Source: Carallia brachiata (lineage: Eukaryota; Streptophyta; Magnoliopsida; Malpighiales; Rhizophoraceae). From it: a stretch of DNA of 64,000 bases. The position numbers and the translations under genes are program-made. Shown piece after piece: positions 3,990 to 64,000 of this stretch. The DNA lies in NCBI GenBank assembly GCA_021464245.1, contig JADCRB010000043.1:5570466-5634465 (forward strand). The letters are read 5' to 3'. The first letter of the stretch is position 1. The number at the start of each line of letters is the position of its first letter. Below the pieces are notes generated by a model. That model saw only the letters and a program-made list of their open reading frames with translations. It was not told where the DNA came from and did not search any database.

Positions 3990-4690
3990 AAAAAAAAAAG
4001 ACACTTCGGAATAATTTCTTTTTTTGGTCCTAAAATATAAGTAATTTCTAGACGACTAAAGACCTATCATCACACCCAGCAATTCTTCGTTTTTTCCGAG
4101 ATTACAATGATGAAGAACCCAAGTTTCCTTATCTTCTGTTTTCTTCGTGCTCCTTCTCCATATTGGTTGAAAGATCCTTCAGTTTTGGTGTCTTATTAAA
4201 CCACAAATGAGGATGAGGAATGTCCCAACAATAACATTGAAGTTACTTACTTTTCCTACAAATATCAGAAAGGTAAGAAAAGTTTAGAAATTGTTAAATA
4301 TATGCTCGTTGCGCAGAGTCAAAATAGTAATTTTCGAAATTAGACAAAGACCTTAGCATAAATTAAATATATACAAATTTTCAAGGATTTTAGATAAATT
4401 TTTGAAAAAGAAAAAAAAAATTTTGCCACTGAATTTTGTGCAGGCCACCAAATTAAGTCTGCCTCTGCCTTTGTCTAGTCTATCGTCCTTAACGCTTCAA
4501 CATTTCTGTTGTTGCCAAAAAAATAAAATAGAGAGAGAGAGAGAGAGAGAGAGAGAGCAATTTGTTGTGAGAATGATGAAAAGGACATCAATTTATTTGT
4601 TGATGTTGTCAATATGGATGAAATATCCAAAGAGAACAATTCGGACAAAGAAAACAAAATGAATAGAAGTCACGAAAGGGAAATGAAAAA
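3990..4690. repeat. Segmental repeat A, copy 1 (no CRK exon attached)
   Basis: This block matches 17941-18740 and 41380-41990 plus 44288-44540 by eye. Shared landmarks are AACCCAAGTTTCCTT, the GA microsatellite (here 4531-4557) and TTTATTTGTTGATGTTGTCA. In the other two copies it lies just beyond the 3' side of the minus-strand DUF26 exon; here the exon is absent. Small frames across it, including one through the GA repeat, look like chance. 3708-3989 is plain AT-rich sequence after the NHL gene. Confidence 0.6.
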
Positions 4691-5960: not shown

Positions 5961-6004
5961 TTGCTACGACTACAATACCATTGAAGTACAATTCATTAAG
6001 CTAT

Positions 6005-6957
6005 TGTAAATAAATAAATAAATAAATAAATAAAATCCTAAGTCAGTGACCGACATCTAGAAGAAGAAAAAAAAAATTTCAAAGTAGATGCTGGTGCAGA
6101 CATGGAAAAGTAATAGCCATGGCGGTGCAGACATTGAAATGGTGATCATGGCGGTGCCAACATTAGAAAATGGTGCCCATGACAGTGGAAGCATTGAAAA
6201 AAAATGGGAAAACATTTTTACCCTCTTCCTTGTCAAACTGCCTATAAATAGGCAGTAAGGCAAGCCAATTGGACGATGGAGAATTTGAATTGGGAATTAT
6301 AATTTCTCTCTCTTCAATTCCAAAAAAAAAAAAAATATTCAGCAAATCTGTAAACAAAAAAATCCAGAGAATTTGAGAGAAAAAGAAAATTTCTCCTTTT
6401 CTTACGTGTTTTTTACTCTACAGTATATTTCTCTTAACTCATTTTTGAGAGATATTTCAGGGATAAACCCCAAAAAAAATTTGTTATTTCCATTTCTAAG
6501 ATTTTTTTCGGATTTATATTCTCTGATCGCCCTGTATCTGAATTTATGAGAATATAGATCTAAAAATATCAAAATATTACAAATCCGGCTGAGATTAAGT
6601 CTCATACGACCCTCAGCAAAATCCAGGCAGCTCATCCGAGAATAAGTCCCCTCGACCCTCGGTGAAATTAAGTTAGATCGGCTCAAATTAGATCTCTGCG
6701 ATTCTTAACCGTAATCTAAACGTCCAAATCAGATCCAGTTTCAGTCTACCCAGTTCAAGATAAAGCTGTAAAAATTATTTCTGTCAAGATCAAGCTCGTG
6801 TAACCCTTGACGGAGTCAAAAAAAAAAAGGAACACTAATCGGAGAATTTACGGAGATCGACCCCACGTAAATTTTCTTTAATTTTTAAATTTTTATTTGT
6901 AATCTATTTTTGTATTTTGGAGTTTAATTGTTTTAGACTCGAAATTTACCCGTTACA
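6005..6957 (+). repeat. 5' LTR of the Tat-type element (953 bp)
   Basis: It starts TGTAAATAAATAA with an (AAAT)n run and ends CGTTACA. It aligns along its whole length with 15578-16535: shared landmarks are AAGTCAGTGACCGACAT, the TATA palindrome, GACCCTCAGCAAAATCCAGG and GACGGAGTCAAAAAAAA. A sequence starting TTTTTGGCACGCTCGGTAG follows directly and should be the primer-binding site; I could not name its tRNA. Confidence 0.9.
6238..6255 (+). promoter_or_regulatory. LTR TATA box inside a perfect palindrome
   Basis: CTGCCTATAAATAGGCAG puts a TATAAATA box inside 8-bp perfect inverted arms around a 2-bp centre. The same 18 bp is intact in the 3' LTR at 15799-15816, although the surrounding LTR has diverged. 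It is the probable U3 core promoter driving the element's transcript. Confidence 0.6.
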
Positions 6958-7142
6958 AATTTTTGGCACGCTCGGTAGGACCTCTTCACCTCCCATCTCT
7001 TGTTCCTTAAAAAAAAAAAAAAACAGCGAAAAGGAAAAAAGCAAAAAAGGAAAAGGAAAAAAGAAAAATAGAAAAAAAAGACAAAATAGAGAAAAAGATA
7101 AAAAAGGTAAAAAAGTAAAAAAAAAAAATTTAACAGGTTCAA

Positions 7143-8794
7143 ATGGCACCAAAAAGGAATACAACTGCTGCAACAAAAAAGAAGGCAACTGCTCCACTGC
7201 CTGCATCAACTATCCTACCTGGGTACGCAGGTCCAGAAACCCACAGATGGACACAATTTCTTACTGTCCAAACCCAACAAAATATCGAAACGGAGAGTCC
7301 ACAGTTTACACAACTACAAGATCTCTCCCCTGACTCTCTTACCGCATTGAGGAGTCGATCACCCACTCCGATCGAAGTCGGGGGCAACACGACGAAACCC
7401 GCTCAACAGAATCTAACTCATTATGTATAAATTCACACAGAAGAATCAGAAGAGTTCTCTCCCCAGTCTTTCGTGGAGCCTCATCTGTTGCCGTCATGAT
7501 GACCAACACAACCAGTACAAAAGAAAGAATTTCAAAACTGGAGAACAAGATTTTGCGGCTGATCAGAGTCGTAGAGGAAAAGGATCAACAGATCGCCGCT
7601 CTTAAAGGAAAAGCCTCAGTCCAAATTGATCATGAGATCCACGAGGAGCAACCATATCCACCCGGTTTCACTCCAGAAGCCACACCAGCCGACGTCTTCG
7701 CTGCAGAAAAGCGACCAGGTAGTTCTACACAGCTGCCACCCTCAATTTCTGTATCTTCGCTATCTGTTCAATAATTGCAGGGAATGATAGCTAATATGAT
7801 CCGCCTGCAACAAGCTACATCCTTCCAAAAATTACAGATGTACATCGAACCGTACACCAGATGGATCGAAAGTCTCAACATGCCTTTAGGCTACCAGCCG
7901 CCCAAATTTCAATAATTCGACGGACGAGGCGATCCCAAACAGCACATCGCAAACTTCGTTGAAACCTGCAACAACGCAGGGACTTACAGAGATCTCTTGG
8001 TGAAACAATTTGTCCGTTCACTCAGGGAGACCGCTTTCACTTGGTTAATAAATCTTGAACCAGAATCAATCGACAGTTGGGAGTAGCTACAACGAGAGTT
8101 CCTCAATAGATTTTTCAACACTCGAATGACGGTAAGTATGATGGAGTTTAACAGCACCAAATAAAGGAAAGGAGAACCCGCTGTCGAATACATCAACAGA
8201 TGACGTGCTCTCAGCTTGGACTGCAAAGATCGCCTGACGGAGACTTCTGTCGTAGAGATGTGCATCCAGAGAATGCATTGGGAGCTGTTATACATCTTAT
8301 AGGGTATCAAACCCTGAACTTTCGAAGAACTGGCGACCCGTGCACATGATATGGAGATAAGCATCCAGATTTTCGGAGGCACGGTTCCTATCTAGTTGGA
8401 CCAGCAAGGGGGTAGAAGGGAGACTAAGAAACTCAACAGTTCTGGAAAAGGAAAAGAAGCGATAACTGTTGAAGCCGCACCAGTAAAAGTGGTAGCCAAA
8501 ATTAAGGTAAATCCTCCGACTCAAATAACTCAGCCAAAACAACAGGAAAGGCGGAAAGTGACATTGCGAGAGTTGGAGCAGAAGCAGTATCCATTCCCCG
8601 ACATTCTTGAACAACTATTGGAGGTGAAGCTGATTGAACTCCCAGAGTGCAAGCGACAGAATGAAAAGGATCGAGTTAGCGATCCAAGATTCTGCAAATA
8701 TCACCGCATACTAAGTCATCCAACCGAGAAGTGTTTCGTTCTGAAGGAGCTAATCATGAAACTCAAGAGCCAGAATAAAATCATTCTGGACTAG
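7143..8794 (+). pseudogene. Tat-type gag, broken by stops and frameshifts
   Basis: The reading begins near MAPKRNTTAATKKK (7143) after an A-rich leader (7007-7135). A coiled-coil block follows (7496-7774, KERISKLENKILRL), then the capsid domain (about 7800-8390: YTRWIESLNMPLGYQPPKF, FDGRGDPKQHIANFVETC, PAVEYINR). The post-capsid region 8396-8794 holds TLRELEQKQYPFPD and a C-x3-H-type segment (CKYHRILSHPTEKC). In-frame stops lie at 7913, 8084, 8162, 8201, 8300 and 8315, and the frame changes near 7430-7496 and 7774. At most of these stops the family normally has Gln, Arg or Trp. No functional gag can be made from this copy. Confidence 0.8.
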
Positions 8795-8848
8795 GAAGGC
8801 ATAACCTCAGCAAACCAGACCACCATCACTTCAAAACCATCAGAAGAG

Positions 8849-9714
8849 GTGACACACCGTAAGGACGAGCCGCTCGACAACAAAAAGTCGACAACGGAGA
8901 AGGTATATGAAGCTCTCCAAACCCTTCCCACTAACCCTCAGCTGTTTACAGCTTTGCAATCAACAGAAGTGTGGAAAAATCAAGTCAGCAATACTCTCCG
9001 AACCTCAGCTGAATCTCTACCATCAAGTAATTCCAACTCGACGGAGCATCAGGCGGCCCAAAATCACGTCGGATGTTACTCCGCTATCTCATTTTCAGAT
9101 GAGGATCTCCTGTTAGGGTCCAAACCCCACAATCGGCCATTCTGATCGACGATGGCTCAGCAGTCAATATTATCCCAAAATCCACCATAAAGGAGCTTGG
9201 CATCGGTATTGATGAGTTATCAGACAGCTGTTTGATGATCTATGACTTTAATCAAGGAGGACAGAAAGCAATTGGGATGATTCGCCTAGAGCTAACTATT
9301 GGTAATATCACTTCTAGCACTCTATTTCATGTGATCGATGCACGTACCACGTATAAAATGTTGCTAGGATGACCGTGGATTCATGGAAATGGAGTTATGC
9401 TCTCAAGTCTGCATCAGTGCTTCAAGTACTACAATGGTGGCGTTCAAAAGGTTAATGCTGACTTAAAGTCGTTCGATAATGTTGAATCACATTTGTCGGA
9501 TGCAGTCTTCTACACCGACACAGACAATCCTGAGATCATTCCATCAAAAGCTACTTGGACTGGGGCGTCCACAAAAAGGAAAAAGCTGTTGAAGAACCTG
9601 TCAATGCTCAACCTCAGACTCCGACAAATGAAAAGCTGCCACAGCTTGCTGAACTTCGTTTGAAGGATGTTGCATTTTCGAGCTCCACTCCAGTCTTACG
9701 CTATGTTCCGAAGT
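8849..9714 (+). pseudogene. Gag-pol junction and aspartic protease, degenerate
   Basis: 8849-9145 encodes the linker common before the protease in this lineage (SFSDEDLLLGSKPHNRPF). The protease active-site stretch IDDGSAVNIIPK follows at about 9142-9180 in a shifted frame, and LGIGID, LELTIGN and PWIHGNGV come after. Compared with the usual spacing, a short piece between GSKPHNRPF and IDDGSAV seems to be missing. A TGA at 9370-9372 sits where Arg is usual before PWIHG. The protease would have processed the gag-pol polyprotein. Confidence 0.7.
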
Positions 9715-9968
9715 AACGATGCCCAGAAGGTCAACCCCCTTTCTTTTATTGTATTGATCCTAAACAAGAGCAAAGACACAGCCAACCCAAGACAAAAGAA
9801 CTACACAACTTGAAGGAGACTTACACTCTGCCGATACCAAAGATTAAGCCGGTTTTATCTTCAAAACCATTAAAAGGCTTCATCAGACCACACATGGGGA
9901 TAGTCGAAGGTAGCTCACTTCCAGAAAGAAGAACACACGAATGATTCGATCCTAATGCATACAAGCTC

Positions 9969-12497
9969 TTGGCCAAGGTAGACTATGACTTTTCAAACCC
10001 GAGCACAATGGGTACGCTGTCGTCCACACATGGCGCCGCTTCTCAATCATCACAGTCCCGATCTGGCTTAGGCTATCAGGAGAAATCACCTGTGCGAATC
10101 ACACTAAAGAGCCGAAGCCGAGTAGCTGATGCACGTACAGTCACCACCACCACCAAACAAGACAGGCTTATCCAGTCAAACAAAGAAGATGAAGTTAGGG
10201 GCTCTACATTTCATGTCACAATTAGCGAGGAGGCTGAGTCCAACTTATCAGACGGCGAAATAAAGGAGGCTCTCCCAGAACTTGAAGATGGTGGCCAAAC
10301 AACTATTGATGAACTCAAGGAGGTCAATCTTGACTCTCCGGAAGATCCCCGGCCTACATTTGTAAGTGTTTTACTTACTGCAGAATAAGAGTAAGAATAT
10401 GTTCAGGTATTAATTCAATACAGGAACGTGTTCACATGGAGTTACAAAGAAATGCCTAGACTTGCCCCGAAAATTGCAGTGCATTGTCTAGCAGTAAAGA
10501 AGGGTGTTCGTTCTGTCAAGCAGCCACAACGACAGTTCCACCCGGAACTCATTCCACAAATCGATGAGGAGGTTAATAAGCTGATCAATGCTGACTTCAT
10601 CCGAGAAGTCACCTACCTAACGTGGATTGCCAACATAGTTCCGGTAAGAAAGAAGAATGGACAATTAAGGGTATGTGTTGATTTTCGAGATCTTAACAGG
10701 GCCTGTCCGAAAGATGACTTTCTGTTACCCATAACGGAGATCACAGTCGATGCAACAACGGGTCACGAAGCATTGTCTTTCATGGATGGTTCTTCAGGCT
10801 ATAACCAAATCAGAATGGCACCAGAAGACGAGGAGTTGACAGCATTCCGCACCCCAAAAGGTATATACTGCTACAAAGTTATGCCGTTTGGATTAAAAAA
10901 TGCTGGCGCCACTTATCAACGTGCTATGCAAAAAAATTTTGATGACATGCTGCACAAGATTGTAGAATGTTATGTTGATGACTTAGTTGTAAAGACTAAG
11001 AAGCGCAAAGACCACCTCGAGGATCTCAAGACGGTGTTCGAAAGACTTCGCAGGCATCAGCTTAAAATGAACCCTCTCAAGTGTGCATTCGGTGTCACAT
11101 CAGGAAAGTTTCTTGGGTTCGTGGTACGACATCATGGAATCGAAGTTGATCAGTCAAAGGTTGAAGCAATTCAAAAGATGCCTGAACCTAAAAACCTGCA
11201 CGAACTGCGAAGTCTACAAGGAAAGCTAGCCTACATTCGCCGTTTTATCTCCAATTTAGCTGGGAGATGTCAACCTTTCCATCGGTTGATGAAGAAGGAT
11301 GTCAACTTCGAGTGGGACGAAGCTTGCAGCAAAGCCTTTGAGAGCATAAAGAAGTACCTTTCCAATCCACCAGTCCTGGGTGCTCCAATTCAAGGAAAGT
11401 CGTTGATTCTCTACATTGCAGCGCAGGAAAGATCTTTGAGAGCCCTGCTTGCACAGGAAAATGAGCAGGGAAAGGAAGCTGCCCTGTGCTACTTGAGCAG
11501 AACACTAAACAGTCCAGAGCTGAGCTATTCACCCATTGAAAAGACATGTCTAGCACTGTTCTTTGCCATTGATAAGCTGAGGCACTACATGCAAGCTCAC
11601 ACGGTACGTCTCATTGCCAGAGCTGATCCTAAATATATCTTATCTAGACCAATCTTGTCAGGACGACTTGCCAAGTGGGCAGTAATCCTACAAAGCTACG
11701 ACATTGTCTACGTGCCTCAAAAAGCAGTCAAAGGACAAGCTCTAGCAGACTTCCTTGCAGATCACCCTGTCCCGTCAGATTGGGAGTTCACAGATGATCT
11801 TCCAGATGAAGAGGTCTTTTACATTGAGACACTGCCACCATGGACGATGTTCTTTGATGGTGCAGCAAGACGTGATGGTGCTGGTGCCGGCATAGTGTTT
11901 GTCACTCCTCAACGACAAATACTACCATATGCTATCATTCTCGGTGAGTTATGTTCAAATAATGTTGCTGAATACCAGGCTTTGATCATTGGTCTTCAAA
12001 TGGCTGTCGATATGAAGATTCCAACTATAGAAGTCCATGGAGATTCCCAGCTCGTCATCAACCAACTTACAGGATTGTATGACGTGAAGAAAGAGGACCT
12101 TGCACCTTACCATCAACGTGCTCGACAGCTAATGGATGAATTTGAAAGCATCACCTTGGAGCATGTGCCTCGACGAGAAAACACTCAGGCAGACGCGTTG
12201 GCTAACCTAGCCACTTCTCTTGCAAAGTCAAAAATTCAGGCTACAGTTGTTGTCGTATGCCATAAATGGATAGTGCCACAGAAGGATGATGAAGAAACTA
12301 CAGTAGCCAACGCTATATCTGTACGTCTCGCGGAGGACAAAGATTGGCGCCAACCAATCATTGACTACTTACAGCACGGGAAGCTGTCCGAAGACCATCG
12401 TCATAAGACAGAAATTCAACGACGAGCTCCCCGCTTCATATATCTCAAGGATGCTCTGTATCGAAGGTCTTTGATGGAGTTTTACTTTGCTACCTAG
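9969..12497 (+). CDS. Pol: reverse transcriptase, RNase H and second RNase H
   Basis: The main open frame is 10428-12497 (689 codons). 9969-10388 holds the preceding linker, split off by stops near 10386-10394. Reverse transcriptase motifs run in order: CVDFRDLNRACPKDDF, SFMDGSSGYNQI, MPFGLKNAGATYQRAM, the catalytic YVDD at about residues 182-185, and FLGFVV. The RNase H joined to RT follows (LCYLSRTLN, FAIDKLRHYM). After a spacer comes a second RNase H with MFFDGAARRDGAGAG, NVAEYQAL, HGDSQLV and NTQADALANLA, retaining the D-E-D-D residues. This pairing marks the Tat lineage. It is the best preserved part of the element, but it lacks an intact upstream gag-protease and so is not expected to function. 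Confidence 0.9.
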
Positions 12498-13581
12498 GCA
12501 ATGAAGAAACAAAACAAGCTCTCGCGGAAGCACATTCTGGAGTTTGTGGCGGACATCAATCAGGGCCTAAGTTGCACTTTCAGCTCAGAAGGATGGGATA
12601 CTACTGGCCAACCATGGTACGTGATTCCATTGAGTTTGCTAAAACTTGTCAAGCTTGTCAATTTCATGCTAATTACATACATCAACCACCGGAGCCACTG
12701 CATCCAACTGTCTCATCCTGGCCCTTTGAAGCTTGGGGTCTCGACTTAGTGGGGCCCTTGCCAAAGTCATCCCTGGGTCACCTTTACATCCTCGCAGCAA
12801 CAGACTACTTCTCAAAATGGGCCGAAGCTATTCCACTTAGAGAGGTAAAGAAGGAGCATGTTGCCAATTTCATCCGGACTCAGCTGATCTATCGCTATGG
12901 AGTCCCTCGATTCATCATCACTGATAATGGTAAGCAGTTCTACAACAGCTTGATCGACAAGCTCTGCGAGAAGTTCAAGTTCAAGCAGTACAAGTCATCC
13001 ATGTACAATGCCCCAGCAAATGGCTTGGCCGAAGCATTCAACAAGACCTTATGCAACCTATTGCGGAAGGTAGTCTCTAAATCCAAAAGAGATTGGCATG
13101 ACAGAATTCCGGAGGCATTATGGGCGTATCGTACAACTTACCGGACTCCAACACAGGCGACGCCATACTCACTTGTCTACGGTGTCGAAGCAATACTGCC
13201 GTTGGAAACACAGATTCCATCTGCGCATGGCTGTTCTGGAAGGACTCACACAGGAGAATGCTCGCCTACGTCTGGATGAGTTAGAAGCCTCGATGAAAGG
13301 AGGCTCGAAGCACAACAGCAACTTGAGTGCTACCAAGCCCGGCTCACCAACACGTTCAACTATAGGTCCGCCCTAGATCTTTTCAAATTGGAGACCTTGT
13401 TCTTGCAGTGCGACGGCCCATCAACATGAAGCATCGGCCTGGTGACAAGCTTACTTCCAAATGGGACGGGCCATACTTAGTGCAGGAGGCCTACACTCAC
13501 AACGCTTACATGCTGTCAGACCAAGAAGGCGTTTGAATCGGCCCGATCCATGGTAAATTTTTGAAACAGTATTATGTGTAA
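12498..13581 (+). pseudogene. Integrase, frameshifted
   Basis: After the stop at 12495-12497 the frame shifts. The zinc-binding region ends in CQACQFHANY, and the catalytic core spans 12572-13220 with GLDLVGPLP, FIITDNGKQF and APANGLAEAFNKT, which supplies the D, D and E residues. The core is open, but reading moves to another frame at about 13220 (MAVLEGLTQENARLRLDELEA), then another (DERRLEAQQQLECYQARLT), then a third (GDLVLAVRRPINMKHRPGD, SKWDGPYLVQEAYTHNAYML). The last continues to the stop at 13579-13581, with a TGA at about 13535 on the way. The C-terminal DNA-binding part is therefore fragmented. Confidence 0.85.
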
Positions 13582-14017
13582 ATATGTTTAAAAAGAAAAA
13601 AAAAAAAATAAAAAAAATCATAAAAAAAGAAAAAAATGAAGAAAAAAAAAAAAAAAAAAAAGTTGGGAAGTCCCAATCTGAAAGTCTAAGCGAAAACCCA
13701 AACTTGAAAATCCAGAACCCAAGTTCAAAATTCAATCCAAATCCAAAACCCAAACACTCGACCCAAATCTAAACATCCAAGTCTAGAAGCCCAAACACTC
13801 GACCCAAATCCAATCCAAAGCCCAAACCGCAAAAATTCCAAGTTCCAAACACAGTCCAGAACCCAAGTTCAAAATCCAATCCAACTCTTGGCCCCCATGA
13901 GTATAAACTATGAACGGCCCAAAAATATGAAAGCGACGGAGGGTTTAAGTCTGAAACCTAGCATCAGTATCAACCGATCTTCAGCACATACCAGACCTTT
14001 GCTCTGCCACAAAAAAG
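13582..14017 (+). other. A-rich and CCAAAACCC-like spacer after integrase
   Basis: 13590-13662 is almost pure A with scattered G and T. 13690-13890 is a degenerate repeat of short C-A-rich words; CCCAAACACTCGACCCAAAT occurs twice near 13750 and 13790. I see no coding potential. It separates integrase from the homeodomain ORF and may contain that gene's original 5' leader. Confidence 0.6.
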
Positions 14018-14629
14018 ATGGAACCAGCTGCAGAACCTCAAGATAAGGGAGAAGAAAAGTCACCCCGCACAAGATGGCAACCAACCATGGCACAACTGCA
14101 AATTTTGGAGGAAGTCTTCCACAACAATGCAGGTATTATTCCTAATGCATCTTAGATTTACCAACTTATCTCACGATTGCGCCAGCTCGGGGCAATCGAA
14201 GGAAAAAATGTGTTTTATTGGTTCCAGAATCGGAGAAGTAGGAAGAAACCAGCACTGAGAACTGCTTTTTCTAAAGTACAGTCTGTCGTTTCGATAGTAG
14301 ATCCCACTGGTACAGCTTCGCCCTCAAATGAAGTAGGTCTGAATTCCCCCACTGCAATGGTCTTTTCAGGCTATAACGATCAAAACAGTAGCCTATGGGA
14401 GCATGCTTATTGGTCATAGTGGTCTTATGGAGTCAGTCAAAGGTTCATCCCTCCTAAGTACTTAAGTTTATGAGAGACTTTTCTTGCAGAAATAAGTCGT
14501 TCCGGCGAAACTTTGCCTCTCTTTCTAGAATATTCTGGTAGCATCAACCAGCCGGAAAGCGACGTCAACATCATCGGCCCACCAGACGAGGTCGAGCTTG
14601 ACTTGGAGCTGCGCCTCGGGCCCCGCTAG
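14018..14629 (+). pseudogene. WUSCHEL-like homeodomain gene carried inside the retrotransposon
   Basis: One frame of 203 codons from the ATG at 14018 to the TAG at 14627, broken only by three in-frame stops (14153-14155, 14417-14419, 14471-14473). Residues about 17-77 form a WUS/WOX homeodomain: TRWQPTMAQLQILEEVFHNN in helix 1, RLRQLGAIEGKNVFYWFQN leading into recognition helix 3, then RRSRKK. The NNA insertion after helix 1 and the IEGKNVFYWFQN block point to the WUS clade rather than other homeodomains. Near the C-terminus lie TLPLF (residues 165-169), the core of the WUS box, and LDLELRL (194-200), an LxLxL EAR-type repressor motif, in the same order as in WUSCHEL. WUS proteins are nuclear transcription factors that maintain stem cells. 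The gene has no intron, lies in pol orientation between integrase and the polypurine tract, and so appears to be a captured host gene. The stop at 14153 falls inside the homeodomain where Gln is usual, so this copy is dead as it stands. Confidence 0.88.
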
Positions 14630-14654
14630 GACGGCTGACAAGATAAGGTGCAAC

Positions 14655-14745
14655 GACTTCTGCAGCACACGGCAACAACTTCTGCAGCACACGACAATGA
14701 CTTCTGCAACACACGGTAACGACTTTCGTGACATGCGTCAGTCGC
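14655..14745 (+). repeat. Short tandem repeat, about 22-bp unit
   Basis: Four degenerate copies of a unit like CGACTTCTGCAGCACACGGCAA lie just after the WUS-like ORF stop. No function is evident. A 16-A run follows at 14821-14836. Confidence 0.6.
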
Positions 14746-14846
14746 TGTCTCTTTTGTCTCTTATGCGGGAAAGGGATGTGAATAACCTTACTCGATTCTA
14801 CGTACCTCCTTTTTGACATTAAAAAAAAAAAAAAAACTCTTGATGT

Positions 14847-14857
14847 TATATATATAT
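14847..14857 (+). promoter_or_regulatory. Possible TATA box for the second accessory ORF
   Basis: A TATATATATAT run lies about 57 bp before the ATG at 14914, followed by a CT-rich leader (CTCTTCTTCTTCCC) and the ATG context AAAATGGC. The layout resembles a compact plant promoter and 5' leader, but TA runs are common in this DNA. Confidence 0.35.
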
Positions 14858-14913
14858 CCTGCATGTCTGAGTCATAATACTCACCCCTTAGCTCTTCTTC
14901 TTCCCAAAAGAAA

Positions 14914-15451
14914 ATGGCTAGTCTCTGCACTTGTCTCAAGAAGTTCTTTGATCAAGAAGTTGGAGGCGCACGAGCTAAGAAAAAAAGGAGTAATCTTCCT
15001 CGAGAGATCTCTAAAAGCCCTCGAAACTCAATCTCCAACGTTATCGGTGTCATGGAGTTCGAACTACTCTCCTTAGTTCACATCTACCACAAAGGGATAA
15101 GACGCTGCAATCATCATAATCTTCCTTTAGATGCGACGACGTACAAGGAAGTTCCAACTACTCTCCTTACGTCAGAACAGACTCGGGAGTCATCACTACA
15201 GTCAGTCTCTCTGTGTGCAGGTCTTGAAGTTCCGAAGTGATGGGCCTTCCTCTTGGGAAGATTCAAGTTCTTTGCCTACCGGATCATCCTCATCAGAGCT
15301 TTGGAACTTCAAAAAACATTTACTAGCCTTTGCGAGCTATGAAAGGTGGAACTCACCTGGAGCCAAGACTTCAATTTTTATATTGGCTGGGCTGCTAACT
15401 TTCTCAAGATCGTATCGGGTTCTTATTGCGATCCAACAACAACAGGCATAG
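14914..15451 (+). CDS. Unknown accessory ORF of the retrotransposon, probably frameshifted
   Basis: The first frame (14914-15240, 108 codons) begins MASLCTCLKKFFDQEVGG, with a basic KKKR cluster at about 23-25. An overlapping frame (15131-15451) continues with a serine-rich stretch (SSWEDSSSLPTGSSSSE), WNFKKHLLAFASYERW and a short hydrophobic segment (TSIFILAGLLTF). A shift between about 15200 and 15240 would join them into roughly 175 residues. I do not recognise the product. It could be a second captured host fragment, an env-like remnant or chance. Coding density and a leader-like upstream sequence favour a real gene, but weakly. Confidence 0.4.
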
Positions 15452-15563
15452 TCAGGGTTAGAAGACTTGAACATTCAATGTTCATCAAGACATCTCAAGT
15501 TTCAAACTAGACTTCAAAACTCAGTTCGGATCATTTCTGTAAAATTCTTCCTTACCGACCCTT

Positions 15564-15577
15564 GAAGTGGGGGCATT
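15564..15577 (+). other. Polypurine tract of the Tat-type element
   Basis: GAAGTGGGGGCATT lies immediately before the 3' LTR start and matches the position and purine richness of the plus-strand primer used in reverse transcription. Confidence 0.75.
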
Positions 15578-16535
15578 TGTAAATAAATAAATAAAAAATC
15601 CAAGTCAGTGACCGACATTTAGAAGAAGAAAAAAAAAATTCAAAGTAGATGCCGGTGCAGACATGGAAAAGTAATAGCCATGGCGGTGCAGACGTTCAAA
15701 TGGTGATCATGGCGGTGCCAACATTAGAAAATGGTGCTCATGACGGTGGAAGCATTGAAAAAAAATGGGAAAACATTTTTGTCCTCTTCCTTGGCAAACT
15801 GCCTATAAATAGGCAGTAAGGCAAGCCAATTGGACAACGAAGAATTTGAATTGGGAATTGCAATTTCTCTCTCTTCAATTTCAAAAAAAAAAATATTTAG
15901 CAAATCTGTAAACAGAAAAATCTAAAAAATTTGAGAGAAAAAGAAAATTTTGAAAATTTTTCAAGAAAATTTCTCCTTTTCCTACGTATTTTTTACTCTG
16001 CAGTATACTCTCTTAACTCCTTTTTGAGAGATATTTTAGAGGTAAGCCCAAAAAAAAATTTGCTGTTTCCATTTCTAAGGTTATTTTCAGGTTTAAATTC
16101 TCTAATCGCCCTAAATCTGAATTTATAAGAATATAGATCTAAAAATATCAAAATATTACAAATCCAGCTGGGATTAAGTCTCATACGACCCTCAGCAAAA
16201 TCCAGGCAGCTCATCCGAGAATAAGTCCCCTCGACCCTCGGTGAAATTAAACTAGATCGGTTTAAATCAAATCTCTGTGGTTCTTAACCGTAGTCTAAAC
16301 GTCCAAATCAGATTCAGTTTCAGTCTACCCAGTTCAAGATAAAACTATGGAAATTATTTCTGTCAAGATCAAGCTCGTGCAGCCATTGACGGAGTCAAAA
16401 AAAAAGGGAACCCTAATCGGAGGATTTACAGAGAACAACTCCACGTAAATTTTCTTTCATTTTTAAATTTTTATTTGTAATTTATTTTTATATTTTCGAG
16501 TTTAATTGTTTTAAATTCGAAATTTACTCGTTACA
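15578..16535 (+). repeat. 3' LTR of the Tat-type element (958 bp)
   Basis: It aligns end to end with the 5' LTR, beginning TGTAAATAAATAA and ending TCGTTACA. Differences are scattered substitutions plus small indels, including an extra TTTTGAAAATTTTTCAAG near 15945. The TATA palindrome at 15799-15816 is unchanged. The flank GATAT (16536-16540) pairs with GCTAT before the 5' LTR. Confidence 0.9.
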
Positions 16536-17460
16536 GATATCTTTCAATCTTTTCACATCTTTTAGTGCATAATTTTTTACATAACATGTAAACTTTTCAT
16601 ATAATTGAGATATACAGATTGGTGCCTTTCAATTTGGTGAATTTACAAACGACAGATTTCTCTAGCCATCGACCGGAATTCTTTCTCATTTGTCTTCTAT
16701 TCCCACTTTCAATGGCTTTTTTTTTGGTCAAATTATAGTCTACATATATTTTACGAGAATTTGAGGGAGCTGAATTTTTTATTCCTAATCTTCACATCAA
16801 GACTAAATTATATTTGACATCTTGTTTTTAGATATTAGCTACGAGGACTTGGTCCAAGTATTGAAAACAAACCACACGTTACTTTTCATCTCGTGTTGAC
16901 AACAATAAACCAACACTGTGAAGAACATTCTCGTCGACTCTTTTGGGTCCAATGTGGGACTAAAGATTTAAGCCATCGAGTGGGCATAGATTTTTTTCAT
17001 CTCATAGTCCTCCGGTTGGGTAGCAAAATCATTGGACTGAACAGAGTTGAATGTAAATTTTCTGTGAATGTTGAATAGTCCACAATGTCCTGTTGACAAG
17101 TTAAAATGTTTGGTTTATTAAGAAAAAAGTTAAGAAATGAAAAAAATCTGCAGAGGAGTAAAACGCTCTGGAATAATTTCTTTCTGATGGTTTTGAAAGC
17201 TTTGCAAGCTTGTTGCAAAAATTGTAGAAAGCAGAAAGAGATTAAAAGACTTCTTCTACTTTTCATTCAGCATCTCACCATATTATATAGAGTTGTTTTG
17301 CATTACAAATTTAAACTCTAATTCAAAAACAATCTACTCTAGAAAGTAATTTCATCCTAATTAAAAAAATCTAATCTTGCAATTTCAAACTTCCTAACAT
17401 AACAAAAACTTGAAAAAAGAGGAAAACATATTCAGCAATGCACAGCACCACTCTTTTGAA
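16536..17460. other. Intergenic DNA with a fragment of the CRK-unit repeat
   Basis: No gene is seen. 17060-17115 (CTGTTGACAAGTTAAAATGTTTGGTT) matches 46030-46065 in the upstream region of the second minus-strand DUF26 gene. Unit-derived sequence therefore already starts here. The small frames are not supported by any motif. Confidence 0.5.
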
Positions 17461-17940: not shown

Positions 17941-19064
17941 CTCTTCGGACACTGTTTTGGTCCCAAAATATAAATAATCACTAGAAGAGTAAATATCTAC
18001 TATTGCACCCAACTTTTCATCCTTTTCCCAACATTACAATGGTGAGGAACCCAAGTTTCCTTCTGTTTTCTTTTTTCCACTTCCCCACTTCTTTGAACTC
18101 CAATTCAGCATGAGATTGGTTGAAGGTCCCTAGGCTTCGAGTCTTGCTAAACCCCAAATGAGAATGAGGAATGTCCCAAACGCAACATAGATGTTACTTG
18201 CTTTCCCTGCAAATATCAGAAATGTAAGGAAAGTTTAGAAATTGTTGAATTTATGCTCCTTGAGGATAGGCAAACTAGTAACTTTCCAGATTAGACAAAG
18301 AAACTCTTAACGTAAAATATTTATTTCAAAGTTTCAAGGGTTTTAGACCTTTTTTTTTTTTCAAAAAAAAATTTGCCCATGAATTTCGTGCAAACCACCA
18401 AATTAAGCCTGCCTCCGCCTTTGTCTACTCTATCGTCCTTAACACTAATACAGAGAGAGAGAGAGAGAGAGAAAGAGAGCAATTTGTTCTGAGTATGATG
18501 AAAGGGACAATAATTTATTTGTTTATGTTGTCATTATGGGTGAAATGTCCAAAAAAGAACAAAACAGACAGAGAAAACAAAATGGGAGAGGTTTCAGCTG
18601 AGCTAAAATAGTTGGGACTGTGTCTCAACCACTCGCCCATGCCTTCGCTTTTCATTCTTCGAACTGTTGGATTATCAATTTTAAAAGAAAAGAAAAACAA
18701 AAAAAAAAGGGGGATAAAAGGCATGAAAAAGATCTAGATAAAAAAATAACTAAATAATTATGAAATTTGATAACAACGAGTGAATTAAGGCTGAACTTAA
18801 ATTTATTAATTAGTGGAATTGGCTTTTTTTGGTCAAAGGGAGGGAAAATTGGCTTTTTTAGTTATATGATATTTGATTCTATTAAACTCTTTTTTTTTTT
18901 TTTCCATATTAAATTCATTTTCTCCATTGAAATTAAGAAAAACCAACCGTGGCTCTGACTCTGAAATTTATAATTAATTGTATTTCCTAGCACTTTGAAC
19001 ATAGTAAAAATAGCAACTTTTGGATTCAAATAGAAGTTGAACAAATTCCATAACAATATGTACG
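17941..19064. repeat. Segmental repeat A, copy 2 (3' side of DUF26 gene 1)
   Basis: The block matches 3990-4690 and 41380-44759. It includes a GA microsatellite at about 18451-18478 and a poly-T stretch near 18891-18903. A kinase-encoding part of the DUF26 gene at 19065-19949 would have to lie here on the minus strand. I looked for a transmembrane exon, a GxGxxG loop, HRDLK and DFG and found none. Confidence 0.6.
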
Positions 19065-19949
19065 CTATTTACCTGAGATGCTAGCCGTGCTAGTTGGTGG
19101 ATCCGCCACTGAAGTTGCCTGTTTTGGCGACGGTGGCGGCCATGACACTACAGGCAGCGGCGGTGGCACTGCCGATGATGGGAGCGACGGCACAGCTGCT
19201 GGATCATAAAACATTTCCTTCTCATACCTAAATTGACAACTGGGGGAATATATTCTTCCTCCTATCCTTCCCGTGCAACATTGTGGGAGCAATTGCATGG
19301 AATTGTCTAAGCAATTGAAGCATTCCAGCTTTGACAAATCAGGAGTGCATTGAACCAATGCATATATGGTATCTCCACTCGTCGTTGCTGTGTTTCCGAC
19401 CGCAAATTTAAAACGAGAATCGCCGGAGGAGGCAATGTTCGTCAGGTTAGTTAGTAATGCACTCAGGGCCTGACTGAACTGGTCGAGGTTGGTAACATTG
19501 TTTATGTTGTACATCGAAAAATAAGGTCCGAACTCCATGTTGCCAAATATGTATCTGTCCGAGTACCTTACCATGCAATCATCATACCAAATGACAGCCT
19601 CTTTCTGGTTAAGACATTGCTGTCTGAGCACTTGCTGAGCATTTTGGATACAATTACGGCAAACAACAGGCAGTGAATCTCCGCGGCAAATCGCGATCGC
19701 GTTGACTTGATCTTTGTTTTCGCCGAATGAGCTGTTGTAGAAGCCGTAGTTGATGTCAGAATTGGAGGTGAGTGAGGTGAGGAGGTGGTCAAGGTTTGTT
19801 TTGTAGGTACTATTGCTGGTGAAATTGCCTGTTTCTGAACAAACTTTATATAAGGGATTTTGCGAGGGATCTTGCCGTGCGATGGTGAGATAGAATTGAA
19901 GGAGAATGTGAGTGATCAAGAGAAACAATATTGAAGAACCCACAGCCAT
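19065..19949 (-). CDS. Secreted DUF26 protein, kinase-less CRK (CRRSP-like)
   Basis: An open frame of 294 codons. Residues 1-25 are a signal peptide (ILFLLITHILLQFYLTIA). Two DUF26/gnk2 domains follow, each with C-x8-C-x2-C: Cys 88, 97 and 100 (CRGDSLPVVCRNC) and Cys 201, 210 and 213 (CTPDLSKLECFNC), then a Pro/Ser-rich tail. The frame matches exon 1 of CRK kinases and reaches a good donor, CTCAG|GTAAAT (exon end 19073), where kinases splice to the transmembrane exon. No kinase exon is found on the next 1.6 kb. Read through the donor, the protein ends five codons later at 19065 with a GK tail. It may act as a secreted apoplastic protein like CRRSPs, or be a 3'-truncated CRK. The ectodomain frame is undamaged, which suggests constraint or recent origin. 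Its close paralogue at 44807-45682 is frameshifted. Confidence 0.75.
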   Translation of the reverse strand: MAVGSSILFLLITHILLQFYLTIARQDPSQNPLYKVCSETGNFTSNSTYKTNLDHLLTSLTSNSDINYGFYNSSFGENKDQVNAIAICRGDSLPVVCRNCIQNAQQVLRQQCLNQKEAVIWYDDCMVRYSDRYIFGNMEFGPYFSMYNINNVTNLDQFSQALSALLTNLTNIASSGDSRFKFAVGNTATTSGDTIYALVQCTPDLSKLECFNCLDNSMQLLPQCCTGRIGGRIYSPSCQFRYEKEMFYDPAAVPSLPSSAVPPPLPVVSWPPPSPKQATSVADPPTSTASISGK

Positions 19950-24990: not shown

Positions 24991-27334
24991 CTTATTATCC
25001 AAAGACTATTTTATTGAAAAAAAAAAATGAGAATTTCATGCAAGAAGTTTCAAAAAAATTTTAAAATGATATAAAATCTTAATCTCCCATTTAAAAGTCA
25101 CTACTTTCAATTACTTCAATTATTTTTGAATCATTTTAATCATTTAAAGTTTTGTTGAACTGTAAGTTATAGAATATGAGCAACTTTTTCTATTTTCATT
25201 CCTATATATGCTATATATAATATAAAAATATATAATGAGTGAAATATAAACATCTAGTTAGTATTTTTGCATACTCTTAAAACAAGATAATATATAATGG
25301 ATAAATAACCAATATATTTATGGCACAATCTATTTTATCAAAAAATTTAAAGAAGAGTTAAAAATATAAATAAATGTTTATCAAATACCTGAATTACTAT
25401 CTCTTGAAAATTAAAAGTAAGAAATTACCTTTCATGATATGAATTTAAAAATGCCCAACCTCAAAAAAAGTAGAATTCCAAATGACTTAACTCAAATTAT
25501 CTCTAAAAGCTATGTAATGTTGAGCATTATAATTAGTGATTCAGTGGTTATAAATTTGATTCACTGAAAGCGCAATAATCTCACTATTCCTTTATAGGGA
25601 GGCAGAAATTTGGAAATCTATTCATTAAAGTTGAGAATTTTTTTAAAAAATGAAGTGGTCCAAAAACACATCCGATTTGAGAAAGAAAGGAAAAAAGGAA
25701 ATTAGTAGAAGAAAGAGGCGATAAGTGGGGACATATTTAATTATGTTCTCAAAAAAGGGCAATAAACGACACACAACAAAACTGCTGTCTTTTTTGACTT
25801 TTCCTTCATTTTCTTCACCGAAATCTCAGTTGTTGCAGGAGGAGGACATGCGCCAATGGTGCAATTAGGTGTTGTTATTAATATTAAAATTTTTTTTGAG
25901 TAATTAAAATTTAATTTTCTTTAAGTAAAATTTTAAATTTAAGATTTGTTTATAGAAAATATAGATATTAGGAGAGTTTTGTCCTTGAGACTTTCTCAGT
26001 TCAAATTAGATTATAAAAAAACTAGTATTTTTGGTAAACTTATGAAGGAATAAATTTCATAATAATTTACAAAAGTCACCAACTGCTCTCAAATCTGTGC
26101 AAGACCAGACAAAAACATTGAAAAAGCAACCGAAGTTTAACCTCACTTAATGTTTTTGGCAAAGATTTGGACACATAATTTGCATGATGAGAACTAATTT
26201 TCAATCGTTGGACCACAACAAATGATGGTTTTGTTGTTCGTTTTTATGTATAAACTTTGACACGATAATTTTTTTTTTTTTTTTATAGTTGCAATTTGAA
26301 ACCTTGATAATAATTATCTAGTTCCTGAATTCATTTATATTTTGCAGCTTAAGAACCCATTTATAAGACAAAATTACCAATAAAATTAAATTTCTAATAT
26401 AATACATAATGTTATTATATTATTAGTAATGATCTACCAAATCGCGAACTTAAATTTTTTTTTCCTAGACCTTTTGTATATATACAATTAGAACTATTCT
26501 CACATATTATCCATGCAATAATTCATGGTGTCGATGTTTAGACTTAGAAACCAACACTTAATATTGACCAAAAAACAAAAAAAAGAAACCAACACTTAGA
26601 ATACTCGTGTAATACAAAAATATAATTGAAAAAAGAAAACTAACACGCTTGTGGATCAGGGGCAATAAATATATAACTACAATTATTAGTTGTAGTTTAT
26701 TCTTTTCATAATAATTACTAATTATGATTTAATAAAAAAAATTTTATCTCCGTCTAATATAATATAATAATAATAAAGATTTTTAATTGAATTCACTTTT
26801 TTTTGGTGAGTATACGTAATCTTATATTACACAATCTACTTAAAATAATAAAAAAATGAATAAATAAAATTTTATAATGTAAGATTCGAGTGAATTAAAT
26901 TAACAAAAAAAAAAGTAAAATTAGTAGGTACCATATTTTTTTTTTAAACAAGAGTTAAACTATATAGATGTTGTGTTTTAAGTTATTCTAAAATGAGAAT
27001 ACAGTTCATCTGGTAATATTTAATAGTTATTTTTTTTTGTCAATTTTTCAAATTTTTCAGATTCAATAAGATCATATTAATTTAATCTTATTTTGATATT
27101 GTTTGAGAATCTGGTAAATATTTTCTTTTTAATAATTCATGGTATTTACATTCTGCCTCCTAATTATCATACCCAATCATGAGTACATGATAAGAGGACC
27201 AAGCAAAAACAGAAGCAAATGCCGATTTTTAAAATAAATTAAACAATCTCCCAAAGCAAAGTTGTTCAAAAAAAAAGAAAAAAAAATCTCCCAAAGCAAA
27301 ACAGAGATATAGCTTGGATCAAGAATAGACATCC
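24990..27334. repeat. Segmental repeat C, copy 1 (upstream of CRK-A)
   Basis: AT-rich DNA leading to the CRK-A start. Similar blocks lie at 51400-51640, 58020-58920, 31010-33045 plus 39299-39945, and 39950-41100. A recurring piece, TTTTTTGACTTTTCCTTCAT with a W-box-like TTGAC, is near 25791. No gene is found. 27130-27334 (TCAAGAATAGACATCC before the ATG) is closely shared with the upstream DNA of CRK-B. Confidence 0.6.
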
Positions 27335-30300
27335 ATGGAGTTTTTCGTGAAGATCTCCTTAATTCTACCATTGCTCGCTTTGCTTAGCTTTGCGAATTTC
27401 ACTGAAGCACAACCCCGTTTTCACATTTGTCCAAACACAACTACTTTTATGAACAACAGCACCTACAAGACCAATCTCAATCGTCTTCTCTCTTCTCTAT
27501 CTTCAAACTCCACGGATTCCACTCAGTATTACCTTAATGGCTTCCGCAACAGCTACTATGGGCTCGACCCAGATGATGTTTATGGCTACTTTCTCTGCCA
27601 GGCCGACGTCAGCTCCGAGGTCTGCAGGGACTGCGTCAGACAGGCCGTCCAAGATATAGTCCAACGTTGTCCTGTCGAAAAAGTGGCCATTCTATGGTAC
27701 GTTGCTTGCCTGTTACGTTATTCGGACAAGTCCTTGTTTTCCATCGACGACGACAGCCAAGCTGTGTCTCTGTTAAATAGAGGCAACGTCACTGTTGAGC
27801 CAGAGCGTTTCAACACGCTGGTGGCGACCACTTTGGCTGAGGTGGCCGTCGCCGCTTCGCCTAGTGCCAAAAGGTTTGCCGTCAAGCAAGTGAATTTCAC
27901 GGCGTTTCAGAACGTGTACAGCCTCGCGCAGTGCACGCCGGACTTGTCGAGCCTCGACTGTGATAGATGTCTTCGGTCAGCTCTCTCGAAGATTCCTGCC
28001 TGCTGTAATGGGAGGCCTGGAGGAACAGTCTTGTTTCCAAGATGTACTATTCGGTATGAAACTTATCCGTTTTACTATGAGTCTTTGGCGGTGGCGCCGC
28101 CTCCTTCACCGGTAGTTAACGCTACTCCTCCGGTAGTTCTTCCTACCTTTCCGACAGAAACTGGAGGTGAGGTCAATTTCATGAGTTGTGTTTTTGTACT
28201 TTCTTTCAACAAAAATAATTTTCAGAATAAAAATTATCATAAATAAAGGAATATTTTTAGTAATTATTTTTTTTAGCAAAATCATAATAGGGTTGCCTAA
28301 TCTCTCTTTGTTTTTTTTTTCATTTATAATTTGGTGTTCCTTATATTTGGTATAATTCCCTCCCCTCCTATTTGTTATATTAGAAAGAGTAAAGCTGCTG
28401 GTACTTGAAAGTTTACAGAGAATTTCACACAAAGAGCAAAACAAAAAGTCCCAATTGTTGAGCGATTGCTTACAAAACTTACCACAATCAAGCCACCCAA
28501 CTCCACTTGATTGAAAAAATAAAAAAAAGAATTGGAAAATTGATTAACCTGATGTGATCATTTTAATCTGTTAAGAAGTTGAATGTAGTGGGCAAAAGGA
28601 GTTACATAAACTAAAGAAATTGGAGTATGTCATGTGTTGGTTTGTTAAGGTGCCCACTAAGCACAAAGAAAAGTACTAATCAGGGTGGTTATTGGCCTAA
28701 AAGCTACTTTTGTTTATATAAATTTTGGGTGCAACACTTGTCAGAGGCTATGAACAATTTTTCTCTATTGATGTTCGAAATTTGCTTATTATATAATTTA
28801 TAAATAAAATTCCAATTCCAATTCCATTTTCTTCTTCTAGTTAGCTTAGAAATCCATTGGGGTGTATTACATAAAAAGAGATGGCCCCTTTTCATCGCAT
28901 AGATGCCTTTCCTTCGTGTGCAGCAGATATTTTGTAGTTCGAGTTCTTAATAATTGAAGTCAAATTAATAAGCAAGGAACCATGATTTGCTAGCGATGAA
29001 ATATCTTGGTGTAGGAAAATAGCAGTCTTAGCTGCAGGGTTGGTAATGCTTGGTTCTATTGCTTGTTTATTCAGGAAAAGGCGGTATATCAACAGCGGCA
29101 ATTGTAGCCATTGTTGCTCCAATTTCTCTATCTTTTATGCTTTTCTGCGTTGGCTACTGTTTCTTACGGGCACGAAAGAAGTATAATCCTGTTCCTGAAG
29201 ATAATGGTACAAGCATAGAAGAAAGATTTTTTGTACATTTCTCTCCTAGTATGTGATCTCATCAAGTTCACTGCATATATCTATCTAATTCATTGTGCAG
29301 TTCGAAATGAAATTACGACTGTGGAGTCCTTGCAATTCGATTTTGCAACCATTGAAGCTGCCACAAACAATTTCTCCAATGATAACAAGTTAGGCGAAGG
29401 TGGATTTGGGGCGGTTTACAAGGTGAGTATTTTGTAACCTCTAAGCTCTTCTCAATTGTTATTTCATAATTTGGCAACTGCATTCTCAGGGTATACTACC
29501 TAATAGACAAGAAGTAGCTGTAAAGAGGCTATCAAGATATTCTGGCCAAGGTGCAGAAGAATTCAAGAATGAGGTTGTCTTGGTGGCCAAGCTACAACAT
29601 AGAAATCTAGTGAGGCTGCTGGGGTTTTGCTTAGATGGAGAAGAAAAGATACTTGTATATGAATACGTGCCCAACAAAAGCCTCGACTACTTTCTATTTG
29701 GTCTGAACATTCTAAACTTGTGTGTATTTTCCTTTAACTTGCTCAAATCCCTATACGCTGTATTGAATTTCTAATTTTTATAATGAATTTGCAGACCCTG
29801 AAAAGCAAGGACAATTAGATTGGTCGAGACGGTACAAAATAATTGGAAGGATTGCAAGCGGAATTCTTTATCTTCATGAGGATTCTCGGCTTAAGATTAT
29901 CCATCGTGATCTGAAAGCTAGTAATATTTTATTAGATGCAGAAATGAACCCGAAAATCTCAGATTTTGGCATGGCTAGGATTTTTGGTGTCGATCAAACT
30001 CAAGCAAACACTAATAGAATTGTTGGGACATAGTAAGTTTCCATTTTCATTCTTAGAGTATGAACATCATACACATATAGATGACTGTGTTCTGCCTCTA
30101 TTATAACATTGCCTGTAAATTTTTTGGTTGTTTGCAGTGGATATATGTCTCCTGAATACGCAATGCATGGACAGTTTTCGGTGAAATCAGATGCTTATAG
30201 TTTTGGTGTCTTGGTACTTGAGATAATTAGTGGAAAAAAAAACAGTTCTTTCTTTCAAACATACTGTGCAAACGACCTCGTGAGCTATGTGAGTGTGAAG

Positions 30301-44806: not shown

Positions 44807-45682
44807 CTGAGATGCTAGCCGTACTAGCTGGAGGATTCGCCACTGAATTTGTCTGTACGGGCGACGGCGGCGGCGTTGACACCACTGGCGCCGGCGGTGG
44901 AGCCACCGATGATTGGAGCGACGGCACAGCTGCCGGATCATAAAACATTTCCTTCTCATACCTGAATTGACAACTGGGGGAATATACTCTTCCTCCTATC
45001 CTTCCCGTGCAACATTGTTGAAGCAATTGCAGGGAATTGTTCAAGCACTTTAAGCATTCCAGCTTTGACAATCAGGAGTGCATTGAACCAATGCATATAT
45101 GGTATCTTCACTCGTCGTTGTGCTGTTTCCGACCGCGAATTTAAAACGAGAATCGCCGGAGGAGGCAATGTTCGTCAGGTTAGTTAGTAATGCACTCAGT
45201 GCCGGACTGAACTTGTCGGGGTTGGAGACATTGTTTTGGTTGTACATCAAAAAATAAGGTCCGGACTCCATGTTGGCAAATATGTATCTGTCCGAGTACC
45301 TTACCATGCAATCATCATACCAAATGACAGCCTCTTTCTGGTTAGGACATCGCTGTCTGAGCACTTGCTGAGCATTTTGGATACAACTACGGCAAGCAAC
45401 AGGCAGTGTATCTCCGCGGCAAAGCGCGATCGCGTTGACTTGATCTTTGTTTTCGCCGAATGAGCTGTTGTAGAAGCCGTAGTTGATGTCAGAATTGGAG
45501 GTGAGTGAGGTAAGGAGTTGGTCAAGGTTTGTTTTGTAGGTACTATTGGTGGTGAAATTGCCTGTTTCTGAACAAACTTTATATAAGGGATTTTGCGAGG
45601 GATCTTGCTGTGCAATGTTGAGATAGAATTGAAGGAGAATGGGAGAGATGAAGAGAAGCAATCTTGAAGAACACACAGCCAT
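44807..45682 (-). pseudogene. Second kinase-less DUF26 gene, one-base frameshift
   Basis: A close paralogue of 19065-19949: signal peptide (LLLFISPILLQFYLNIA), first DUF26 with CRGDTLPVACRSC, second with CTPD then LECLKC, and a Pro/Ser tail, ending at the same donor CTCAG|GTAAAC. In the second Cys motif the plus strand reads TTTGACAATC where gene 1 has TTTGACAAATC (about 45064-45073). The loss of one A ends the frame after CTPDCQSWNA. Past the lesion the original frame is open to the donor and on to 44760, so this is the only disabling change I see in the ectodomain. It is a recent pseudogene or a sequencing error in a homopolymer. The TATA box is retained at 45739-45746. Confidence 0.8.
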
Positions 45683-45738
45683 TTTTTGCCCTCTTGGAAT
45701 TGGGAGTCAAATTCTGCTTTTTATGAACTGATAGTGCC

Positions 45739-60863: not shown

Positions 60864-61325
60864 CAAAAAAAAAAAAATGCTTCGGTTCATCCTTCTGTTT
60901 TGGCAAAGAAAGTTATAAATAAAAGAAAAGGTTGGGGGCGGATCGGGCAAAGAAACAGAGTGGGGGCTACCTGCTATTTCTTTGTTTTTTTTAGTGAATT
61001 ATTTTTGGGCATGGTACCTCATTCAATTTTTTATCTAAAATTTATCTGAATTATAATAAATTTTTAATTTTTTTTAATAATAGTAATTTTTTACAACAAA
61101 AAAAAAAAAAATTGAACTTCTTTTTTGTTACAAAAATTTAAATATAGTTATAAAAATTAAGATTTTATCATAATTCAAACAATTTTCGAGTAAGAAAAAT
61201 TTCGAATCATCTATTTTTTTTTTTTTTGAGTGAACTATTCTGACCACATTTATTCTCCCTTAAAATAAATTAAACAAAGTCCCGAAGCAAAACAGAGATA
61301 TAGCTTGCATCAAGAAAATACATCC
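60864..61325. other. Upstream region of CRK-B
   Basis: AT-rich. The last 60 bp (CCCGAAGCAAAACAGAGATATAGC up to the ATG) closely match the CRK-A leader and should be the promoter-proximal 5' UTR. No TATA box is obvious. Confidence 0.5.

Positions 61326-64000
<2,675 letters not shown>

Follow-up and report, generated by a model that had tools for sequence, protein, structure and literature searches.

The stretch analysed here, called the window throughout, comprises 64,000 nucleotides of Carallia brachiata contig JADCRB010000043.1 (positions 5,570,466 to 5,634,465). It contains a complete Ty3/gypsy element of 10,531 bp (6005-16535), and inside this element lies an open reading frame (ORF) of the WUSCHEL (WUS) type, sense-oriented and situated between integrase and the 3' long terminal repeat (LTR). 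An earlier note on this DNA, made from the letters alone, had placed the frame in pol sense between integrase and the polypurine tract and within one LTR pair; the LTRs at 6005-6957 and 15578-16535 bear this out. The frame and its parts are:

14018..14629, + strand: captured WUSCHEL ORF of 203 codons and a final stop (14627), interrupted in the window copy by stops at 14153, 14417 and 14471
14063..14263, + strand: WUS-type homeodomain with an extra loop residue; base readers R19, Q70, N71 and R75
14510..14524, + strand: WUS box, TLPLF
14597..14617, + strand: EAR motif, LDLELRL

The homeodomain that the note had recognised is confirmed by Pfam (PF00046, E 1.7e-11) and by matches to the PDB entries for AtWUS (1.3e-18) and STENOFOLIA (6.8e-15). 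The claimed order of motifs, WUS box and then EAR, holds as well: TLPLF followed by a near-terminal LDLELRL, in the same order and with the same spacing, never arose when the region behind the homeodomain was shuffled 100,000 times. The final P of the TLxLFP consensus is missing from the window copy; among the other copies, 16 have an open frame extending as far as the box, and 11 of these carry the P. Only the motifs and their order carry over: phmmer found no significant homology for the whole part behind the homeodomain (best E 0.31). The protein database holds no close copy of the ORF, the best match being 53% identical over one third of its length, and the viral contig and genome contig collections searched yielded no further copies. 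The other five frames of the segment contain 8-10 stops each (shuffle mean 10.9) and the ORF frame three internal ones, a low count that is not decisive as proof of constraint: three or fewer stops occur in 23-28% of neutral runs near the observed divergence.

The frame was compared with 152 WOX proteins, a WUS-heavy set with few WOX5/7 members, grouped by the span from RW to NVFYWFQN; the profile search for WOX proteins listed 120 of 4000 matches. The span is 45 positions in the window ORF, as in 121 of the 152 proteins, and 44 in the remaining 31. Most of the 121 carry the source name WUSCHEL or are called hypothetical, and the named among the 31 are mostly WOX3, WOX4 and WOX10-12, with odd labels in both groups (P0003 is WOX7-like, P0027 is also labelled WUSCHEL). 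The AtWUS structure paper describes a one-residue insertion at the end of helix 1 as WUS-specific within WOX (PMC7203112), and the window homeodomain has this insertion. A WUS box followed by a C-terminal LxLxL EAR motif is found in 116 of the 121 span-45 proteins and in none of the 31 span-44 proteins. The window homeodomain is identical to AtWUS at 34 of 64 positions, and the trees separate the ORF from WOX11/12-type rows with support of 99/95 (first tree) and 99/96 (second). Identity, loop length and motifs support a captured gene of the WUS type, not another WOX. In these respects the note's assignment to the WUS clade stands; the trees leave the place of the ORF among modern WOX proteins unsettled, and a single clade of WUS plus the transposable-element (TE) sequences is neither rejected nor demonstrated by either tree set (p-AU 0.52 in the first, 0.41 in the second).

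The residues that read DNA are well kept. In the AtWUS crystal structures, bases are reported to be read by R38, Q89, N90 and R94, and the backbone to be contacted by K82, N83, Y86, K92, R96 and R100 (PMC7203112). In AtWUS numbering, the window ORF retains every base-reading residue, and the backbone contacts are kept except for K92R and R96K; S36 is replaced by R, a substitution that in AtWUS is described as leaving TGAA band shifts like wild type and altering the TAAT pattern (PMC7203112). The window residue equals that of WUS at 15 of 17 WOX-invariant columns vs 17 of 47 others (P 4.4e-4). A structure model of the ORF protein reaches a predicted local distance difference test score (pLDDT) of 91-95 across residues 21-70, with a mean of 62, and its best structural matches in the PDB are WUS homeodomains on DNA.

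The carrying element and its copies

The element is bounded by LTRs that are 90.7% identical over aligned bases (953 vs 958 bp; Kimura two-parameter distance 0.100) and by a near-intact target-site duplication, with flanks GCTAT and GATAT that match at four of five bases. Pol is ordered reverse transcriptase (RT) - RNase H - integrase, with a second RNase H (RVT_3) after RT_RNaseH by Pfam. A second RNase H behind the first is a Tat trait, which would place the element in the Tat lineage. In the window copy, the gag-to-protease part and integrase are broken up over several frames and contain stops, as the ORF lists show; this copy is therefore most likely dead. Its remaining parts are:

6000..6004, no strand: 5' target-site duplication GCTAT; 3' copy GATAT at 16536-16540
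6005..6957, + strand: 5' LTR, 953 bp, with TATA-like TATAAATA at 6243
7143..8794, + strand: presumed gag region, in pieces; Pfam gives no gag-family match
9103..9372, + strand: aspartic-protease-like piece (PF13975, E 0.0022, below cut-off)
10395..12497, + strand: reverse transcriptase, RNase H and second RNase H (RVT_3), by Pfam
12407..13279, + strand: integrase (H2C2 and rve), in a frame that differs from that of RT
13560..14017, + strand: stretch from integrase to the WUS ORF, A-rich at its start; precedes the ORF in 37 of 37 copies
14650..14725, + strand: 22-bp tandem repeat, 3.5 copies, directly 3' of the WUS ORF
14735..15570, + strand: downstream stretch that served as a probe; the region behind the ORF (14630-15577) is matched in 37 of 37 copies
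15558..15577, + strand: polypurine tract region preceding the 3' LTR
15578..16535, + strand: 3' LTR, 958 bp

A further sense ORF of 108 amino acids (14914-15240) lies behind the WUS ORF within the stretch that the copies share; it has no Pfam match.

The genome searched amounts to 337.5 Mb in 164 contigs. A search with the ORF protein gave at least 151 matches, of which 150 were listed (150 scored of 2266 candidates); apart from the window itself, the listed matches share 78-88% identity with the window copy, almost all of them over its full length, and 54 of the 150 are free of stops by hand count, so that stop-free copies, for which the note had proposed to look, do exist. A search with the homeodomain scored 150 of 1348 candidates, and 40 loci were fetched by going down its list through the matches of 183 nt that score between 52.5 and 49.5 bits; this set omits four matches of that length with higher scores, L006 among them. 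The 40 loci comprise 37 element copies, two host WUS genes (L011 and L012) and one other WOX gene (L023). The flanks of the ORF are shared by all 37 element copies: one upstream and one downstream stretch recur in each, followed by 3' LTR sequence, and integrase was located upstream of the ORF in 32.

A second sample was chosen by DNA outside the ORF. The probe 14735-15570 listed 40 matches, all scored, of 1328 candidates; the first 22 of the 39 matches other than the window supplied 20 copies, one copy shared with the first sample and one lying 345 bp behind the preceding match being excluded. The ORF was matched in 20 of these 20 copies, in two of which the best match covered the 3' part of the ORF only. 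The segment is thus no late insertion into one element, as its position is the same family-wide, and the capture and amplification of a host WUS-clade gene that the note had proposed is supported by the number of ORF matches and by their single TE clade. Unscored first-look counts suggest over a thousand copies, a figure that unmerged haplotypes could inflate. The frame is open from the homeodomain through the C-terminus in 15 of the 37 homeodomain-picked copies and in 4 of the 20 picked by the downstream probe. Identity of the downstream stretch to its nearest copy ranges from 0.893 to 1.0, and the copying of the family has therefore probably been spread over a long time.

Two pairs of copies on different contigs are especially alike: L009/L010 and L047/L048, whose identity is 99% across 4.8 kb and 96-98% across long pieces. 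They may be recent copies, segmental duplicates or unmerged haplotypes.

Origin of the captured gene

The distance from the homeodomain core to the WUS box is 1173 nt in host gene L011 and 1066 nt in L012; the same genomic spacing is 294-303 nt in the 16 element copies in which it is measurable. A Medicago WUS homologue is described with three exons and two introns (PMC6305195). Because the element lacks the gap of 1.1-1.2 kb seen in both host WUS genes, capture likely proceeded through a spliced host mRNA, and the literature describes template switching from one packaged RNA to an unrelated one as a route to such capture (PMC13317346). The TE homeodomains form one clade with support of 98/92 in a tree holding nine TE rows (the window plus 8 of the 13 distinct strings from 28 of the 37 copies), and one capture therefore suffices.

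Retroposition of the LINE type into one element was also considered; the family-wide position of the ORF counts against a one-off event of this kind. Of exact direct repeats next to the ORF, two A-runs (13642-13661 and 14821-14836) were the only ones reported, and such runs are frequent: the window holds 31 A/T runs of at least 12.

The host genome has at least two WUS genes, L011 and L012, both nearest to Erythroxylum WUS (P0159) among the WUS proteins compared.

Selection and the proposed role of the ORF

Selection was assessed in the 37 homeodomain-picked copies, the 20 downstream-DNA-picked copies and the pooled 57 by comparing amino-acid changes among variants shared by at least three copies with those among singletons, wrong frames serving as controls. 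In the pooled copies, shared variants carry fewer amino-acid changes over all codons (P 0.0056) and in the homeodomain (P 0.0008, a value that leans on the copies picked by homeodomain score), and the wrong frames give P 0.68 and 0.97. In the first 37 copies alone, P is 0.042 over all codons and 0.15 within the homeodomain. These copies together with the window gave a dN/dS of 0.29 in the homeodomain, a value that was set aside because homeodomain score had decided which copies were picked. The 12-residue core of helix 3 is kept, as it is in at most 0.0007 of neutral runs at the observed divergence. Constraint along the path from WUS to the TE ORF is well supported; for the recent spread, constraint is likely in the homeodomain but unproven in the rest of the ORF. 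As a whole, the data suggest selection on the ORF that is weaker than that on integrase.

Plant germ cells are set aside late, from shoot stem cells, and WUSCHEL defines these cells. We propose that a WUSCHEL gene was likely captured once from spliced host mRNA by template switching and that the ORF protein is a WUS-like DNA-binding repressor predicted to act in trans. It would bind TGAA-type sites, with the S36-to-R change, and its WUS box and EAR motif would recruit co-repressors. Such a repressor would work in the shoot apex, the source of plant germ cells, where new insertions reach the germ line; its action in the meristem would thereby favour transmission of the element. We put the probability of this reading, a Ty3/gypsy family with an intron-less WUSCHEL between integrase and 3' LTR, likely taken up in one mRNA capture by template switching and encoding a predicted trans-acting meristem repressor that favours the transmission of the element, at about 0.8.

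Several results weigh against it. The best tree (the second) places the TE clade outside WUS plus the other modern WOX proteins (94/80, unstarred), and the copies match host WUS at 29-33 of 64-65 positions, no closer than the window copy matches AtWUS; the structure model is confident for the homeodomain only. In the 20 copies of the second sample, pN/pS is 0.52 (0.43-0.64) and overlaps the wrong frames at 0.69 (0.54-0.83) and 0.82 (0.63-1.07), and the shared-versus-singleton test is not significant in these copies alone, at P 0.081 over all codons and P 0.10 within the homeodomain. Further results of this kind are also what a mere passenger would leave, that is, a WUS cDNA captured once and carried unused by a successful lineage, its ORF partly open since many copies are young. 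Codons 83-203 show no significant selection in the pooled 57 copies (P 0.25), integrase is far more strongly constrained (4 nonsynonymous to 18 synonymous shared variants in the first sample), only 4 of the 20 copies in the downstream-probe sample have a frame that stays open from the homeodomain through the C-terminus, and neither TGAA nor TAAT sites are in significant excess in the LTRs, the lowest P being 0.09 for paired TGAA in the 3' LTR. Because of this last result, regulation of the element itself by the ORF protein is less likely. An unused cDNA fits poorly, however, with a homeodomain that is only about half identical to AtWUS and host WUS and yet keeps the helix-3 core and nearly all WOX-invariant columns, with shared homeodomain variants poor in amino-acid changes across both samples, and with the presence of the ORF in every copy chosen by other DNA; we regard the passenger account as possible, though doubtful.

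The divergence itself might have arisen before capture, if a WUS-like host gene had changed fast and the element had taken up that paralogue recently. The stem leading to the TE clade is long (0.84 changes per site) and the branches inside it are short, and Ipomoea does have short divergent WUS-like proteins (P0003-P0005) that match the WUS consensus at 65%; yet the WUS-type sequences among the 40 fetched loci are L011, L012 and the TE copies, with no intermediate among the 150 of 1348 candidates that were scored, and we consider such a paralogue unlikely. Least probable by far, and hardly credible to us, is that the window copy is read through splicing. A GT-AG stretch at 14133-14489 (357 nt) spans all three stops and would leave a short product with WUS box and EAR motif and without the recognition helix; of 1000 shuffles, 37 contain an in-frame pair of equal strength and 2 a pair that encloses the three stop places as well. 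The GT and AG are both retained in 33 of 37 copies, which says little because the copies are alike overall, and the spliced form finds no support, since stops of other copies are not concentrated within the stretch (12 of 18 events vs 59% expected).

Beyond the trans-acting repressor favoured here lies a bolder, speculative view: a retrotransposon lineage may have made WUSCHEL its own accessory gene, a TE-encoded factor with broadened DNA recognition that would rewire meristem expression and gain a route to the germ line, which, together with the Vigna and LONELY GUY-carrying Gypsy elements described below, might represent a recurrent strategy. A high-copy element with an open WUS-type regulator offers a natural test of transposon manipulation of the stem-cell niche, and the family supplies naturally varied WUS homeodomains for binding studies. 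It is also a warning for annotation: open WUS-like element copies would be counted as an expansion of WOX genes.

Precedents and surroundings

The earlier note knew of no described case; one exists. According to a meeting report, WOX genes in Vigna marina and V. riukiuensis have been amplified inside pairs of identical LTRs bordered by target-site duplications (PMC10714607), and in the literature searched, as far as the accessible texts go, no other LTR element enclosing a WUS or WOX gene is described. This single brief precedent makes the novelty of the present family weaker than first stated. The Vigna sequences resemble it in their many copies (>1000 in V. riukiuensis) and in that the WOX genes are mostly LTR-flanked; they differ in being described, in what the report offers, without element lineage, WOX type or selection test, and the comparison is one of descriptions only (PMC10714607). 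The Vigna hosts are legumes, whereas the present host is not legume-like, its WUS genes being nearest to Erythroxylum among the proteins compared.

Other plant LTR elements carry host-type domains. Citrus Gypsy elements with YgdH/LONELY GUY likewise carry the domain of a cytokinin-activity gene, but an enzyme domain where the present element has a transcription factor; Phalaenopsis Gypsy elements with an AlkB m6A demethylase also hold a recently acquired, amplified extra ORF, yet one that encodes an RNA demethylase with shown activity, in elements of 25 kb; and LTR elements of Aegilops tauschii contain a plant transcription-factor DNA-binding domain, B3, which belongs to another family than WUS and is reported without detail (PMC9289625). 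The main text of that screen of 121 angiosperm genomes, searched by term, does not contain the word homeobox (PMC9289625). Additional sense ORFs (aORFs) share position and orientation with the present ORF, those described being env-like, and Bs1 has similarly transduced host genes, though it holds segments of three genes without full-length ORFs (PMC13317346). Compared with AtWUS (PDB 6RYD), the TE ORF has the same WUS-specific homeodomain insertion, base readers, WUS box and EAR motif; it differs in that about half of the homeodomain is identical, S36 is R, helix 3 ends in NRRSRKK vs NHKARER (TE ORF vs AtWUS), and the gene is intron-less and borne by a mobile element.

Direct repeats at 4185-4631 and 18136-18553 (83-88% identity) flank the element and look like the LTRs of an older, short element that was the target of its insertion. 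Pieces of other elements lie farther off, a MuDR transposase at 36607-37422 (- strand) and an RNase-H-like stretch (RVT_3) at 48336-48995 (- strand). Four frames, at 19065-19946, 27329-28246, 45050-45706 and 61269-61952, appear by eye to be of the cysteine-rich receptor-kinase type, Pfam finding Stress-antifung in the first only. An NDR1-like neighbour is at most 54% identical to any protein among the matches listed, with 49% to Phaseolus.
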